From Bacteroidota bacterium (GTDB lineage Bacteria > Bacteroidota > Ignavibacteria > Ignavibacteriales > Melioribacteraceae): a stretch of DNA of 64,000 nucleotides. The translations under genes were made by a program, and so were the position numbers. Below, one piece after another: positions 18,980 through 24,173 of the stretch; the first letter of the stretch is position 1; each line of letters starts with the position of its first letter. The DNA lies in assembly GCA_018829205.1 (NCBI GenBank), contig JAHJUE010000005.1, positions 124,001-188,000 of the forward strand, given 5' to 3'. The notes beneath the pieces were generated by a model. It was given only the letters and a program-made list of their open reading frames with translations, had not been told where the DNA came from and made no database searches.

Positions 18980-20872
18980 ATGAGCTTAAGCGGCAAATTT
19001 AAAAAAAGGGTATTTATATTTTTATTAGTACCGGTTTTAAGCGCTGTGCAATTTTTTACGGATGATTTTATTCTTAACTTAATTGCCGCGGCTTTGCTTA
19101 TTATTTATGTCGCCTTTATTATTTTTTTACGCGATTCAGTGCGTACAGATTTTGAATTTCAACCTGATATTCCACCGGTACAAGAACCGTTAACCGAATT
19201 CGACGACCAAACTCCTCGTTCAGCAAGACCAAAATTTGATACCGATGCCGGAGAAGAATTTAAAATTATTTCAGGTAATAAAGATATTGAAGTTATAACG
19301 GGGGATAATTATATACCTACCGGACCAAGACTAAATAGAGGCGGAATATTTAAGCCCGCGGACTTAAAAGAAAATTTTGTAAAAATTGCAAAAGAAAAAC
19401 TTCCCGAAGATGTAAGTCAAGATGAAGAATTCGGATTTGTTCTCGAAAAAATAATTGCCGTAATCAAAGAAGTTTTTATGGCTCATACCGTTGTTTTCTT
19501 CTGGTTCAATAAAAAGAAAAACAGATTAACGCTTGAAAAATTTCTATCTGGCAGTTCAGATATTACTAAGCAGAAATTTGATATAGAAAATGATGTATTG
19601 AGCAAAATTGTTAAAACCGAAGAACCTGAAATACTTACAGATATTACTTCTGCTGCCGAACATGATGTAATCAGGTATTATTCAACACCGCAGGGAATTA
19701 GAAGTTTTGTTGGCGTTCCCTTATTTTACGGCAATACTCTTGCAGGTGTTCTTGCATTGGATTCTAAAGTCGGCGACGCGTTCGGTATTGAAACTGTTTA
19801 TTCGCTTGGAAGATTTGTAAGAGTAATTTCAATTATTATCTCTTTGTTCGATGAAAAATTTGCCGAAACACTTTCGGAACAAAGACTAAAAGCATTGCTC
19901 GGCGTTCTGTCGGCCGATAAAAAATTCGTTAAAGAAAGCGAACTTCACGGCGCAATTGAAAATGCTGTTAAAAGTCTTGTGCAATGGGACGCATTTACAT
20001 TTGTTTTTTATAATCCGACTGAGCATAAATTTAAAACCTCAAAAATTGTAAACAATACATCGCTAAAATATGTTGGCGAAAATTTAGAAATAGAACTTAC
20101 CGGAACTCTTGTCGGTAAATCGATTATCAGCGGCATGCCTGTTAAAATTGATGATACTTCCTCTTCCGATTATGTTAGATTTGCTAAAGCCGAAGATGTA
20201 AGTTTTGACGGATCCTTTTTAGCTATTCCGCTTGTTTATGATGATCAAAATTACGGGGTTCTTTGTTTCGAAAGTCTGAAGAAAAGTTTATATAATAATT
20301 CCGATGTTCAGTTCTTAAAAAGCGCCACAAAAATATTCGCTTTTATAGTTTATTCCTATTCTAACCAAAGTCTGTTAAAGAGTCTGCTTTCGGTGGATAT
20401 TGAAACTAAAACGCTGAATCATGAATCATTTGTTGAACGGTTGACAAGCGATTTAGTTAAAGGAAGCGAGCTTTCTGTTCCCGGAGCCGTTGCATTAATT
20501 CAGATTGATAATTTCATCGAACAGAAAACATTATTTGAAGGCGATCCCTTCCCTAAAGTATTAAAAACAATTACGCAGCTGATCAAGGAAGAAATGTCGC
20601 CGCTTACACTATTGGGTAGACTAAACGAAAAAACTTTTTCTGTTTATTTCTTTAATTCAACAACTAAAGATATTTTCCTGTGGGCTGAAAAATTAAGAAT
20701 TAAAATAGCACGAAAACCAATTGCCGTTGTAACCAAACAAACAACTTTTACCGTATCAATTGGAGTGGCTTCAACCGCTAATAAAACAGACGCGAATGAA
20801 GTGCTTCATAATGCAGAACTCGCATTAAATAAGGCTCTTGAAAAAGGGGGCAATACTGTTAAAAGTATATAA
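18980..20872 (+). CDS. Membrane protein with two GAF domains and a degenerate GGDEF domain
   Basis: This 630-residue protein has two adjacent hydrophobic segments near residues 10-50. Two GAF-like sensory domains follow (about 145-290, with GIRSFVGVPLFYGN and GVLALDSK; about 305-455, with GSFLAIPLVYDDQNYGVLCF). The C-terminal domain resembles GGDEF: it ends with TVSIGVAS and a helix like those of diguanylate cyclases. The catalytic loop, however, reads GRLNEKTFSV, so GGDEF has become NEKTF and the cyclase is almost certainly inactive. It may sense a ligand and signal by protein contact. deoB begins 12 nt later, so the genes are probably co-transcribed. Confidence 0.8.
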   Translation: MSLSGKFKKRVFIFLLVPVLSAVQFFTDDFILNLIAAALLIIYVAFIIFLRDSVRTDFEFQPDIPPVQEPLTEFDDQTPRSARPKFDTDAGEEFKIISGNKDIEVITGDNYIPTGPRLNRGGIFKPADLKENFVKIAKEKLPEDVSQDEEFGFVLEKIIAVIKEVFMAHTVVFFWFNKKKNRLTLEKFLSGSSDITKQKFDIENDVLSKIVKTEEPEILTDITSAAEHDVIRYYSTPQGIRSFVGVPLFYGNTLAGVLALDSKVGDAFGIETVYSLGRFVRVISIIISLFDEKFAETLSEQRLKALLGVLSADKKFVKESELHGAIENAVKSLVQWDAFTFVFYNPTEHKFKTSKIVNNTSLKYVGENLEIELTGTLVGKSIISGMPVKIDDTSSSDYVRFAKAEDVSFDGSFLAIPLVYDDQNYGVLCFESLKKSLYNNSDVQFLKSATKIFAFIVYSYSNQSLLKSLLSVDIETKTLNHESFVERLTSDLVKGSELSVPGAVALIQIDNFIEQKTLFEGDPFPKVLKTITQLIKEEMSPLTLLGRLNEKTFSVYFFNSTTKDIFLWAEKLRIKIARKPIAVVTKQTTFTVSIGVASTANKTDANEVLHNAELALNKALEKGGNTVKSI

Positions 20873-20883
20873 CGGATGGTTCA

Positions 20884-22047
20884 TTGAATAATTTTATTAT
20901 AATAGTTCTTGACGGTGTCGGAATTGGTGAATTGCCGGATGCGAATAAATATAACGATACCGGAAGCAATACATTGGCAAATTTGGCAATTAATGTAGGC
21001 GGACTAAAATTGCCAAATCTGGAAAAACTTGGATTAGGAAATATTTCTGAAATAAAAGGAATTAAAAAGCAGGAAAATCCTTTAGCTTCATTCGGTAAAA
21101 TGAATGAACTTTCTACTGGTAAAGATTCAACTTCCGGGCATTGGGAGCTGGGGGGATTAAAAGTAGATTTTGATTTTCCGACATACCCCGATGGATTTAG
21201 TAATGAGATAATAGACGCTTTTATTAATAAAACCGGAGTAAAAGGAATTCTTGGAAATAAAACGGCTTCCGGTACGTCAATTATAGAAGAACTTGGGGAT
21301 GAACATGTAAAAACAGGATATCCGATTGTTTATACTTCGGCTGATTCTGTTTTTCAAATTGCGGCGCATGAAGATGTAATTGATATACAAAAACAGTATG
21401 AAATATGCAGAATTGCCAGAAACGAAGTATTAACCGGCAAAGACGCAGTTGGAAGAGTAATCGCGCGTCCTTTTATCGGTAATTCGGGTAATTATAAAAG
21501 AACAACAAATAGAAGTGATTTTTCAATTGACCCGTCCGGTGATACAATATTGGATATTCTTTCAAATGAAGGAATCCGTACAATTGCTATCGGAAAGGTA
21601 AACGATCTTTTTAATTATAGGGGAATTCAAATAGAAGAAAAAACTAAATCTAATTTTGAAGGAATAAAAAAAATTGTTGAATATTCCTCGAATGAAAATG
21701 GAAGTTTTATTTTCGCGAATCTTGTTGATTTTGACGTTTATTTCGGTCATCGGCTTGATCCTAAAGGATTTGCAAATTGTCTTTCGGAATTTGATTATGA
21801 ACTTCCTGTTATTTTGGAAACATTGCATGAATCAGATGTACTGATATTAACCGCCGATCACGGAAACGACCCGACAGTTAAGAGTACAGATCATACAAGA
21901 GAATACGTGCCATTGCTGTATTATTCAAAAAATAGAAAAGGTGTGAATTTGGGAGTACGCGATACGTTTTCTGATGTTGCTCAAACGGCCGCGCATTTTT
22001 TTAAAATAAATAATGGTTTGAAAGGAACAAGTTTTCTAAATGATTAA
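20884..22047 (+). CDS. deoB: Phosphopentomutase
   Basis: DeoB interconverts ribose (or deoxyribose) 1-phosphate and 5-phosphate, linking nucleoside breakdown to pentose metabolism. The 387 residues show the alkaline-phosphatase-superfamily metal site: LDGVGIGELPDA, then LSTGKDSTSGHWEL with the phosphorylated threonine region, and TADHGNDPT with TDHTREYVPLL at the C-terminus. The start is TTG at 20884. The next gene overlaps its end by eight bases. The window also encodes cytidine deaminase and transketolase, which suit a nucleoside salvage role. Confidence 0.95.
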   Translation: MNNFIIIVLDGVGIGELPDANKYNDTGSNTLANLAINVGGLKLPNLEKLGLGNISEIKGIKKQENPLASFGKMNELSTGKDSTSGHWELGGLKVDFDFPTYPDGFSNEIIDAFINKTGVKGILGNKTASGTSIIEELGDEHVKTGYPIVYTSADSVFQIAAHEDVIDIQKQYEICRIARNEVLTGKDAVGRVIARPFIGNSGNYKRTTNRSDFSIDPSGDTILDILSNEGIRTIAIGKVNDLFNYRGIQIEEKTKSNFEGIKKIVEYSSNENGSFIFANLVDFDVYFGHRLDPKGFANCLSEFDYELPVILETLHESDVLILTADHGNDPTVKSTDHTREYVPLLYYSKNRKGVNLGVRDTFSDVAQTAAHFFKINNGLKGTSFLND

Positions 22048-22306
22048 GGATGATTTAAGCGAATTAGGTTCTTTTGAGATTAAGTTACGGCAAAACGAAA
22101 ATTTTGAAATTTCAGCAGAAAAAATAAATAGTTTAATTGATTCTGGATTTAAAACCGTTATTGTAAAACTATACGGTTCTTCCAAAAAAGCCGCTGCTAA
22201 TTTGGGGCATAATGAAACATTATTCGAAAATATTAAAAAAGTTCAGTCTTTACCCGATAATATAGTTTATGATTTTTTTGAAAGTAAGGGGAAAATTTCT
22301 CGGTAA
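22040..22306 (+). CDS. Unknown 88-residue protein overlapping deoB
   Basis: I do not recognise this protein. It starts at an ATG inside the last codons of deoB (eight-base overlap), which suggests translational coupling. The sequence is predicted soluble and mixed alpha/beta. A strand-like VIVKLYGSS follows a helix SAEKINSLIDSGFK, and there is no signal peptide, membrane segment or cysteine. Such a pattern resembles a small nucleotide- or protein-binding fold, but no family can be named. It is 44 nt upstream of the PIN gene and in the same apparent operon as the two BMC-P genes. Confidence 0.7.
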   Translation: MIKDDLSELGSFEIKLRQNENFEISAEKINSLIDSGFKTVIVKLYGSSKKAAANLGHNETLFENIKKVQSLPDNIVYDFFESKGKISR

Positions 22307-22350: not shown

Positions 22351-22731
22351 ATGAAAGAGTACCTGGTTGAAACGGATTTAATTTTAGATCATTTAACATA
22401 CAAGGGATCGTTAAAATCTGATTTGGAAATTGCGATGGAAAACGGAATTTGTTTTACTACCGCTATAAACGCAAGCGAATTGTTTTTTACAGCTAAAAAT
22501 GAAGTTGAAATAAAATATATAAATAAAGTAATTACAGCTCTTAAAATTCTCGGAATTAATTCGAGATACAGTCTTGCTGTTAATGAATTTGCCGGAAATG
22601 TCTCAAGTGTAAGAGACGCAATAATTTGCGCCACGGCAAAAATTAATAAATTACCTATTTTAACTAAAGATCCGGATAACTATAAATCAACCGGATTAAA
22701 TATTATACATCCAAACGAATTACGAGGTTAA
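22351..22731 (+). CDS. PIN-domain protein (putative ribonuclease)
   Basis: The 126 residues fit the PIN fold of Mg-dependent RNases. Acidic positions are D9 in the first strand, E43 in INASELFF, D89 in VSSVRDAIICATA and D107 in PILTKDPDNY, matching the usual four. Many such proteins are VapC toxins, but no recognisable antitoxin is adjacent. The only small neighbour is the unknown 88-residue protein. GAGGGG lies just before the ATG. The downstream BMC-P gene begins 2 nt after its stop, so the two are translated together. Confidence 0.75.
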   Translation: MKEYLVETDLILDHLTYKGSLKSDLEIAMENGICFTTAINASELFFTAKNEVEIKYINKVITALKILGINSRYSLAVNEFAGNVSSVRDAIICATAKINKLPILTKDPDNYKSTGLNIIHPNELRG

Positions 22732-22733
22732 TT

Positions 22734-23033
22734 TTGATTCTCGGAAAAGTAATTGGAAATGTGTGGTCAACCAGAAAAGATGAAAATTTGGTCGGATCTA
22801 AATTTTTAATTGTCCGTCAATTAAATCTGGACTACACGCCAAAAGAAAATTTTGTTGTTGCCGTTGATTCCGTTGGAGCGGGTGTTGGTGAAGTAGTGCT
22901 ATGCGCACAAGGCAGTTCTGCAAGACAGACAGCCATAACTAAAAACAAACCTGTCGACGCGGTAATAATGGCAATTGTCGATAAACTCGACATATCCGTA
23001 AAAGAAAAACTGGCTGAAATGGTTGAGGATTAG
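22734..23033 (+). CDS. BMC-P (EutN/CcmL) microcompartment vertex protein 1
   Basis: EutN/CcmL proteins form pentamers that cap the vertices of bacterial microcompartments. The 99 residues show the family pattern from start to end: ILGKVIGNVWSTRKDENLVG, then FVVAVDSVGAGVGEVVLCAQ, GSSARQ and PVDAVIMAIVDKLDI. The start is TTG at 22734 with GAGG at 22724-22727. It follows the PIN gene by 2 nt, and its TAG is directly followed by the ATG of the second copy. No BMC-H or BMC-T shell gene or encapsulated enzyme is nearby, so its role is open. Confidence 0.92.
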   Translation: MILGKVIGNVWSTRKDENLVGSKFLIVRQLNLDYTPKENFVVAVDSVGAGVGEVVLCAQGSSARQTAITKNKPVDAVIMAIVDKLDISVKEKLAEMVED

Positions 23034-23306
23034 ATGGAGCTTGGAAAAGTTATAGGAACAATTTGGGCTACCAGAAAGTATGAAACTGTTACAGGTTATA
23101 AAATGCAATTTGTTCAGCCAATTAATTCAAATATGGAAAACCTTGGTGATCCAATAGTTGCTCTTGATACCATTGGAGCAGGTCCCGGGGAGGTTATATT
23201 TTATATAACCGCAAGCGAAGCGGTAATTCCGCTTGATGTTGATATGGCGCCGGTTGATGCGTCAATTGTGGGTATAGTTGATTCAATTAATTCAGAAATT
23301 AATTAA
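23034..23306 (+). CDS. BMC-P (EutN/CcmL) microcompartment vertex protein 2
   Basis: This second vertex-type protein has 90 residues: MELGKVIGTIWATRKYETVT, then GDPIVALDTIGAGPGEVIFY and PVDASIVGIVDSIN. It keeps the GAGxGE turn and the C-terminal VDA-IVGIVD strand. It differs clearly from copy 1, lacking the SSARQ loop residues (here TASEAVIPL). The two are thus old paralogues and not a recent duplication, and they may form mixed pentamers. The primary sigma factor gene begins 12 nt after its stop. Confidence 0.92.
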   Translation: MELGKVIGTIWATRKYETVTGYKMQFVQPINSNMENLGDPIVALDTIGAGPGEVIFYITASEAVIPLDVDMAPVDASIVGIVDSINSEIN

Positions 23307-23318
23307 TAGGAGTTTGCA

Positions 23319-24173
23319 TTGAAGATAACAAAACAATACACTAATCGTGAAAGTCAATCTCTCGACAAGTATCTTCAAGAAATTGGTAAAGTAGATCTCT
23401 TAACTCCGGATATGGAGATTGAACTGGCGATTCAAATAAAAAAAGGAAATCAGGGTGCGCTTGAACAATTAGTGAAAGCAAACCTGAGGTTTGTGGTTAG
23501 TGTTGCAAAACAGTATCAGAACCAGGGCTTGTCTCTTGGCGATTTAATAAACGAAGGAAACCTGGGATTAATAAAAGCGGCAAAAAGATTTGATGAAACA
23601 AGAGGATTCAAATTTATTTCTTATGCCGTATGGTGGATTCGTCAATCAATTTTACAGGCTTTAGCCGAACAATCAAGAATTGTGCGTTTGCCTTTAAACA
23701 GGGTAGGAGCACTAAATAAAATCGGTAAAGCGTACAGTAATCTTGAACAGGAATTTGAAAGAGAACCAAGTGCTTCCGAACTTGCTACTGAACTTGAAAT
23801 GGATATAAATGAAGTTGCCGATACTTTGAAAATATCGGGCCGCCATGTTTCAATGGACGCTCCCTTCGCTCAGGGCGAAGATAACAGGCTTTTAGATGTT
23901 CTTGAAAACGATCAGCAGCCGGCGCCTGATTATACTTTAATGTCGGAATCTTTAAAGAACGAAATTGAAAGAGCTCTGTCAACTTTAACCGAAAGAGAAG
24001 CCGAAGTTATTAAACTTTATTTTGGATTGAATAAAGAACATTCCTTAACTCTTGAAGAAATCGGAGAGAAATTTAATCTAACACGCGAAAGAGTAAGACA
24101 GATAAAAGAAAAAGCGATAAGAAGATTACGTCACGCATCAAGAAGTAAAAACTTACGCGCATATTTAGGTTAA
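23319..24173 (+). CDS. rpoD: Primary RNA polymerase sigma factor (short Bacteroidota type)
   Basis: This sigma-70 factor directs RNA polymerase to housekeeping promoters. The 284 residues start with region 1.2 ([20 protein letters not shown]). Region 2 follows ([20 protein letters not shown], then [20 protein letters not shown]), then region 3, then region 4 with [16 protein letters not shown]. Region 1.1 and the long non-conserved insert of E. coli RpoD are absent, as in Bacteroidota and Chlorobiota. The start is TTG at 23319 with TAGGAG six bases upstream. It lies 12 nt after the second BMC-P gene and is likely co-transcribed with it. Confidence 0.95.

Follow-up and report, generated by a model that had tools for sequence, protein, structure and literature searches.

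The question raised by this locus is what two microcompartment vertex (BMC-P) genes, here designated P1 and P2, are for between a PIN-domain gene and an rpoD-type sigma factor gene in a stretch of 64,000 nucleotides (the window) on contig C32. Both open reading frames were found as initially annotated (Table 1), with gaps of 2 nt (PIN-P1), 0 nt (P1-P2) and 12 nt (P2-rpoD), and PF03319 (EutN_CcmL; curated cut-off 25 bits) was covered over its full model with E values of 1.1e-32 for P1 and 4.3e-26 for P2. The closest solved structures to P1 were 5v74/6mzx/6mzy (E 4.7e-25), which we take to be the Haliangium ochraceum (HO) shell; the closest to P2 was 4i7a (E 1.3e-12). The record titles of the nine best named P1 relatives (78-90% identity) read Melioribacteraceae, Melioribacter or Ignavibacteri-, with Chlorobiota in a single case. 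The deoB product scored 521 bits with NF003766 (cut-off 256). For the sigma factor, the best NCBIfam models were RpoD by name, yet the score stayed under their cut-off (302.6 of 555). The GAF-GGDEF gene in front of deoB has the same position in most relatives.

Table 1. Coordinates of the vertex gene pair, its flanking genes and further proposed components in the same genome.
Feature	Location	Strand	Basis
GAF-GGDEF protein, directly 5' of deoB	window 18980-20872		
deoB, phosphopentomutase	window 20884..22047	+	NF003766 and TIGR01696 above cut-off
Small ORF X, 88 aa	window 22040..22306	+	ORF list; no match in Pfam
PIN-domain protein, 5' of P1	window 22351..22731	+	PF01850, 31 bits (cut-off 23.6)
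P1, BMC-P vertex protein, 99 aa, TTG start	window 22734..23033	+	PF03319, 112.8 bits
P2, BMC-P vertex protein, other clade than P1, 90 aa, ATG start	window 23034..23306	+	PF03319, 91.7 bits
rpoD-type sigma-70 factor, 3' of P2	window 23319..24173	+	Sigma70 regions 1.2, 2, 3, 4
P3, third BMC-P	C26:121166-121441	-	PF03319; dprA-like gene adjoining
BMC-H (98 aa) and long BMC-H (260 aa)	C4:126607-127696	-	PF00936; ruvX-like gene adjoining
PduS/RnfC-like gene, then PduT-type BMC-T	C33:32801-34699	+	BMC-T: PF00936
DeoC, N-terminally extended, candidate cargo	C4:112927-113793	-	PF01791-type aldolase
RpiB-like, microcompartment-type N-terminal domain, candidate cargo	C8:64037-64702	+	PF02502-type
AldDh, CoA-acylating acetaldehyde dehydrogenase, candidate cargo	C26:105075-106658	-	TIGR02518

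The genome (4,586,260 bases in 39 contigs, 99.95% complete) gave three matches to PF03319 and four to PF00936, in four places on C32 (window), C26, C4 and C33. All PF00936 matches were on C4 and C33, in agreement with the annotated absence of BMC-H and BMC-T genes from the window. The two families were matched on separate contigs, and no locus combined BMC-H and BMC-P. The description of the pair as orphans was refuted by a third BMC-P gene (P3), two BMC-H genes and one BMC-T gene in three other places. The other suggestion made for the pair, that it may serve shells encoded elsewhere, gained support from the same genes; the genome-wide search returned shell genes and no compact BMC locus. The longer of the two BMC-H proteins (L008:9108-9890, -) has a long acidic linker and a C-terminal tail, together about 180 additional residues, and a Pfam scan of the tail gave no meaningful match. 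The labels dprA, ruvX, folD, aroA and manC used in this text rest on reading of the sequences and not on a family scan.

For phylogenetic placement, a tree of 55 BMC-P proteins was calculated from 90 columns, in which many forks are unresolved. P1, P2 and P3 were placed in three groups, each together with triplet members of compact BMC loci. Branch support was 97/97 for the P2 clade, 96/91 for the P3 clade and a weak 84/69 for the group of P1 with outgroups. Because the separate groups of P1 and P2 are shared with compact-locus triplets, the two genes are not the product of a local duplication. P3, which is on a long branch, was placed closer to third triplet members from class II aldolase loci (L077, L078, L082, L085) than to those from DeoC loci.

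Conservation was analysed in the 30 best named P1 loci (titled Ignavibacteri-, Melioribacteraceae, Bacteroidetes, Chlorobiota or bacterium) and in 146 genomes drawn evenly from the Ignavibacteriales. In the named loci, P1 identity was 68-90%, and P1 and P2 were adjacent in 30/30 according to the BMC-P profile. The order deoB-P1-P2-rpoD was found in 26/30; L053 ends ahead of rpoD, L069 begins just ahead of P1, and in L068 and L071 rpoD was present with deoB unmatched. Matches to the PIN gene were limited to 15 of the 30 loci, and a counterpart of ORF X was seen in five. A compact BMC locus elsewhere and a lack of conserved gene order would have counted against the initial annotation; neither was observed, the order being conserved for deoB, the pair and rpoD.

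Across the order, PF03319 was matched in 119/146 genomes (exactly three matches in 76) and PF00936 in 139/146, meaning that 20 of the 27 BMC-P-free genomes retain PF00936 matches. In 15 of 17 BMC-P-free genomes, deoB was followed by rpoD without the pair; four of these intervals contained the PIN gene, and some contained small unmatched ORFs. The other two pieces were without rpoD, one having a different ORF and one ending. In genomes with a single BMC-P (n = 4), the deoB-rpoD interval was empty of BMC-P in three and occupied in G069 (L241:2877-3212), where AldDh is absent and DeoC is unextended. These intervals with and without BMC-P indicate that presence of the pair varies at a single site and that deoB and rpoD are neighbours whether or not it is there. 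A possible tie to pentose or nucleoside metabolism had been suggested from deoB in the same run. The hint pointed to the chemistry favoured below, but the linkage itself is no evidence, since deoB and rpoD adjoin in genomes lacking the pair.

Three enzymes are regarded as candidate cargo. Among the seven PF00171 genes of the genome, one was assigned by its best family match to the CoA-acylating acetaldehyde dehydrogenases (AldDh; TIGR02518, 616.7 bits, slightly below the cut-off of 620.1). The six other aldehyde dehydrogenases were set aside, L134, L135 and L139 on family matches, L136, L137 and L138 on sequence reading only. AldDh was detected in 102/146 genomes (E up to 1e-60). Both AldDh and BMC-P were present in 100 genomes, BMC-P only in 19, AldDh only in two and neither in 25 (Fisher 4e-14, a P value inflated by relatedness); for the 109 genomes of at least 90% completeness the numbers were 81, 11, 0 and 17, the 17 double-negatives spanning 8 genera. 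Presence lists for AldDh and for PduS (below) were transcribed by hand. Twelve genomes had at least two BMC-P and no AldDh match. Four of them carry PduL, and probably another compartment, and three are less than 82% complete; G049, G058, G107, G118 and G122 are fairly complete, with at least two BMC-P and neither an AldDh match nor PduL.

In the additional C-terminal region of AldDh, a variable linker separates a first conserved stretch from a likewise conserved end peptide. At the end, the best 11-residue window was amphipathic compared to shuffles in 27 of 28 relatives. For the whole end peptide, the shuffle fraction was 0.15 in the protein of this genome (not significant) and 0.057 in the consensus, and for the inner helix the whole-peptide fraction was 0.50. 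From these sequence features, the C-terminal peptide is proposed as a candidate targeting peptide.

DeoC was found in 132/146 genomes with or without a shell, so its presence alone is uninformative. N-termini were therefore compared in 49 of the 132 genomes, comprising the 30 best matches and 20 chosen regions (one genome twice), with system-free genomes picked deliberately. A conserved extension of about 72 residues was present in 31/49; each of these 31 genomes also carries BMC-P, and AldDh is present in 29 of them. Sorted by AldDh, the extension occurred in 29/29 genomes with and 2/20 without the enzyme. The 18 genomes with unextended DeoC had AldDh in 0/18; 13 were without BMC-P, three had one BMC-P and two had four BMC-P plus PduL. 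In the genome under study, deoC is about 13 kb from the BMC-H gene and is tied to the system by the extension and co-occurrence only.

Residues 1-58 of this DeoC were not covered by any solved DeoC match, and a low-confidence model predicts a helix at residues 3-23. In the window test for amphipathicity, its extension had a shuffle fraction of 0.016; at group level no difference was found (median 0.104 vs 0.08 for other DeoC N-termini), and whole-peptide fractions were 0.74 and 0.61. The missing group difference and the low model confidence speak against reading the extension as a simple targeting helix. When eight genomes were searched for other carriers of this extension type, only DeoC scored well and all remaining matches had E >0.03. 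Within residues 20-40 of the protein (L202:8928-9794, -), the extension includes a nearly invariant Cys-x-Gly-Trp-Glu motif, a possible metal or redox site, and DeoCs of compact Elusimicrobia loci have a Cys-rich stretch ahead of the same core. A shortened remnant of the extension (24 bits) was seen in the DeoC of G057 (L216:2666-3472). This genome had two PF00936 matches but none for BMC-P or AldDh, and the remnant looks like an apparent trace of compartment loss.

The RpiB-like gene is unlinked to shell genes. For this family, 20 hand-picked genomes were compared, the set without the system including G003 (one BMC-P, ten PF00936 matches). Extended RpiB-like proteins of 207-228 aa were present in 10/10 genomes with the system and 0/10 without; of the latter, four had only RpiB of ordinary length and six had no match. 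According to the predicted structure, the first 47 residues form a small folded domain followed by a flexible linker; whole-peptide shuffle fractions were 0.023 and 0.004. In a comparison of 10 members with family models (E up to 1), the N-terminal domain matched TIGR02536 in 10, EutQ in 7 and PduM in 4, with best E values of 6e-11, 2e-7 and 0.015, respectively. It recurs in proteins of 26/50 other BMC-P loci (E <1e-3), and among eight stretches scanned from this genome it was clear in the RpiB-like protein alone. When aligned with 3ph3, the RpiB-like protein has other residues in place of the CGTG motif found in ordinary RpiB. At the cysteine position of the motif, Asp was seen in RpiB-like proteins of both the scattered (L266:1297-1962, +) and the compact system (L073:8291-8734, +), which suggests that the isomerase reaction is changed or lost.

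The BMC-T protein (183 aa, two BMC domains) is encoded directly 3' of the PduS/RnfC-like gene. Its best structure match was the PduT-type 3nwg (E 5e-50), with Cys39 aligned to the cysteine of 3nwg. The PduT cysteine is an iron-sulphur ligand, and PduS acts in electron transfer. PduS-like genes were present in 104/146 genomes, 95 of which had the close form after nine low-identity genomes were dropped by a cut of the analyst's choice. The close form and at least two BMC-P occurred jointly in 91 genomes, BMC-P only in 18, PduS only in four and neither in 33. The PduL-family PTAC (PF06130) was matched in 12/146 genomes across the order and had no match in the genome under study, and PduL was consequently rejected as core PTAC. 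In at least nine of the 12 genomes, the distance between PduL and a BMC-P gene is about 3 kb, which points to a second compartment type.

Outside the order, P1 was 52-57% identical to counterparts in the Elusimicrobia loci L073, L074, L076 and L079. Each of these holds BMC-H, P1, AldDh, BMC-T, RpiB, P2, P3 and extended DeoC within about 5-6 kb. L073, home to the closest named relatives of P1 from outside the order, has in addition PduS, a second BMC-T, a second BMC-H and an 88-aa relative of the RpiB N-terminal domain, and by eye also reads as carrying TIM and PduL. AldDh of the genome under study was 45-55% identical to proteins of clostridial and Desulfoluna loci vs 32-35% to those of compact DeoC loci.

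Taken together, we consider it likely that P1 and P2 are two of the three vertex proteins of a dispersed deoxyribose-5-phosphate metabolosome that is widespread in Ignavibacteriales. Hexamers, trimers and pentamers from the separate loci would assemble the shell, and DeoC, the RpiB-like protein and AldDh would be brought into it by their terminal extensions. The function would be SPU-like (see below), from deoxyribose-5-phosphate via acetaldehyde to acetyl-CoA, with the last step carried out by AldDh within the shell. The exit route for electrons from NADH could be PduS together with the BMC-T cysteine. Weak points of the metabolosome reading are the absence of PduL, the genomes G049, G058, G107, G118 and G122, the case of G069, the tree position of P3 and the chemistry of the RpiB-like protein.

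A dispersed shell could also serve another aldehyde, for example the product of a class II aldolase, with DeoC and the RpiB-like protein being extended for another reason. A class II aldolase gene (L010:4301-4963, +; PF00596) is indeed located about 4.7 kb from P3, such aldolases are present in several compact BMC loci among relatives, and P3 clusters, on long branches, with third members of these loci. However, this aldolase has 220 aa and is without the longer tail of BMC-locus aldolases (e.g. 234-286 aa in L077, L078, L082, L085 and L118), terminal extensions linked to the system are found on three enzymes that belong to a single pathway (DeoC, RpiB family, AldDh), and L073, the compact locus with the closest named P1 relatives from outside the order, holds DeoC and RpiB. 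We therefore regard the other-aldehyde reading as unlikely.

Two further readings leave the pair without a working shell. The genes may be degenerate relics of a lost microcompartment, retained by chance in housekeeping operons, as could be concluded from their scatter, the lack of the system in some lineages, the DeoC extension remnant in G057 and the BMC-P without AldDh in G069. The open frames are full-length, though, with the P1 identity within named loci given above, and BMC-P, AldDh, PduS and the extended forms of DeoC and RpiB occur jointly, which makes loss of function very improbable. A role outside compartments had been suggested in the initial annotation, such as a mixed pentamer acting as scaffold, which might have a connection with transcription or the sigma factor. 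The rpoD linkage is conserved, some genomes retain BMC-P without an AldDh match, and G069 keeps a single BMC-P at the same site. Against this, every type of shell gene is present in the genome, compact BMC loci have adjacent counterparts of P1, P2 and P3, and AldDh-free genomes, G069 excepted, are without the pair in the deoB-rpoD interval. As the pair is part of the BMC-P triplet known from compact loci and is mostly missing where AldDh is missing, the orphan or scaffold role was rejected on shell gene types and tree placement, and we give it hardly any credence.

Constitutive expression of the pair, as proposed earlier from its position before rpoD, appears plausible, because the stretch from deoB to the rpoD start was free of terminator-like sites in a simple scan and other component genes are located among apparent housekeeping genes. 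A promoter scan gave 15 sites vs 12.6 expected. With several gene names assigned by sequence reading, the vertex genes are next to rpoD/deoB, the hexamer genes next to ruvX, the RpiB-like gene next to manC and pyrK/pyrD, and deoC next to folD and aroA. More tentatively, with somewhat more doubt than confidence, the metabolosome could be a standing housekeeping organelle that is dissolved into basal operons and made in step with growth. It would then act in routine nucleotide turnover or acetaldehyde containment and not upon an induced diet.

Parts of the proposed system resemble known microcompartments. As in propanediol compartments, a PduS/RnfC-like gene precedes a PduT-type BMC-T with a cysteine in the aligned place, but here the two are in a scattered setting. 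HO microcompartments, as described by Sutter et al. 2021 (PMC8217296), have a BMC-P triplet and a main locus, and some genomes have an unlinked DeoC-family aldolase with a targeting-like N-terminal extension. The triplet, and the best solved relative of P1 (5v74/6mzx/6mzy), are points in common, whereas a main locus is not found here.

Sugar phosphate utilization (SPU) loci were described with a DeoC-type aldolase, an RpiB family protein and AldDh, and breakdown of DNA products was proposed for them (Axen et al. 2014, PMC4207490; PMC8217296). The same three enzyme types are the candidate cargo here, and the compact Elusimicrobia loci are close to the SPU inventory. Instead of one compact locus as in SPU, seven sites carry the genes here, two each on contigs C4 and C26 and one each on C8, C32 and C33. 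Further differences are the lack of PduL in this genome and, compared to compact DeoC loci, an AldDh of another branch.

FRAG microcompartments were reported in Ignavibacteriae with shell genes in several places and a BMC-P triplet (Sutter et al. 2021, PMC8217296). The survey calls them enigmatic, mostly far from known enzymes, names neither a signature enzyme nor a function, and expects the function from environmental correlation; genes up to 12 ORFs from a shell gene were gathered (PMC8217296). Within the literature searched, which left out most subscription papers and all preprints, no report linking Ignavibacteria or FRAG shells with DeoC was found. Proposing cargo from terminal extensions and co-occurrence supplies one FRAG type with a function that can be tested. 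In addition, surveys of shell neighbourhoods (12 ORFs) seem to overlook cargo when the genes of an organelle are scattered, and gene clustering seems not to be needed for a microcompartment to persist in most of an order. The present system fits the FRAG type by its shell genes in several genomic places, BMC-P triplet and Ignavibacteriae hosts, the assignment resting on scatter and triplet. It differs in that DeoC, the RpiB-like protein and AldDh with their terminal extensions are proposed as unlinked cargo, a candidate cargo set that is new for a FRAG-type shell.
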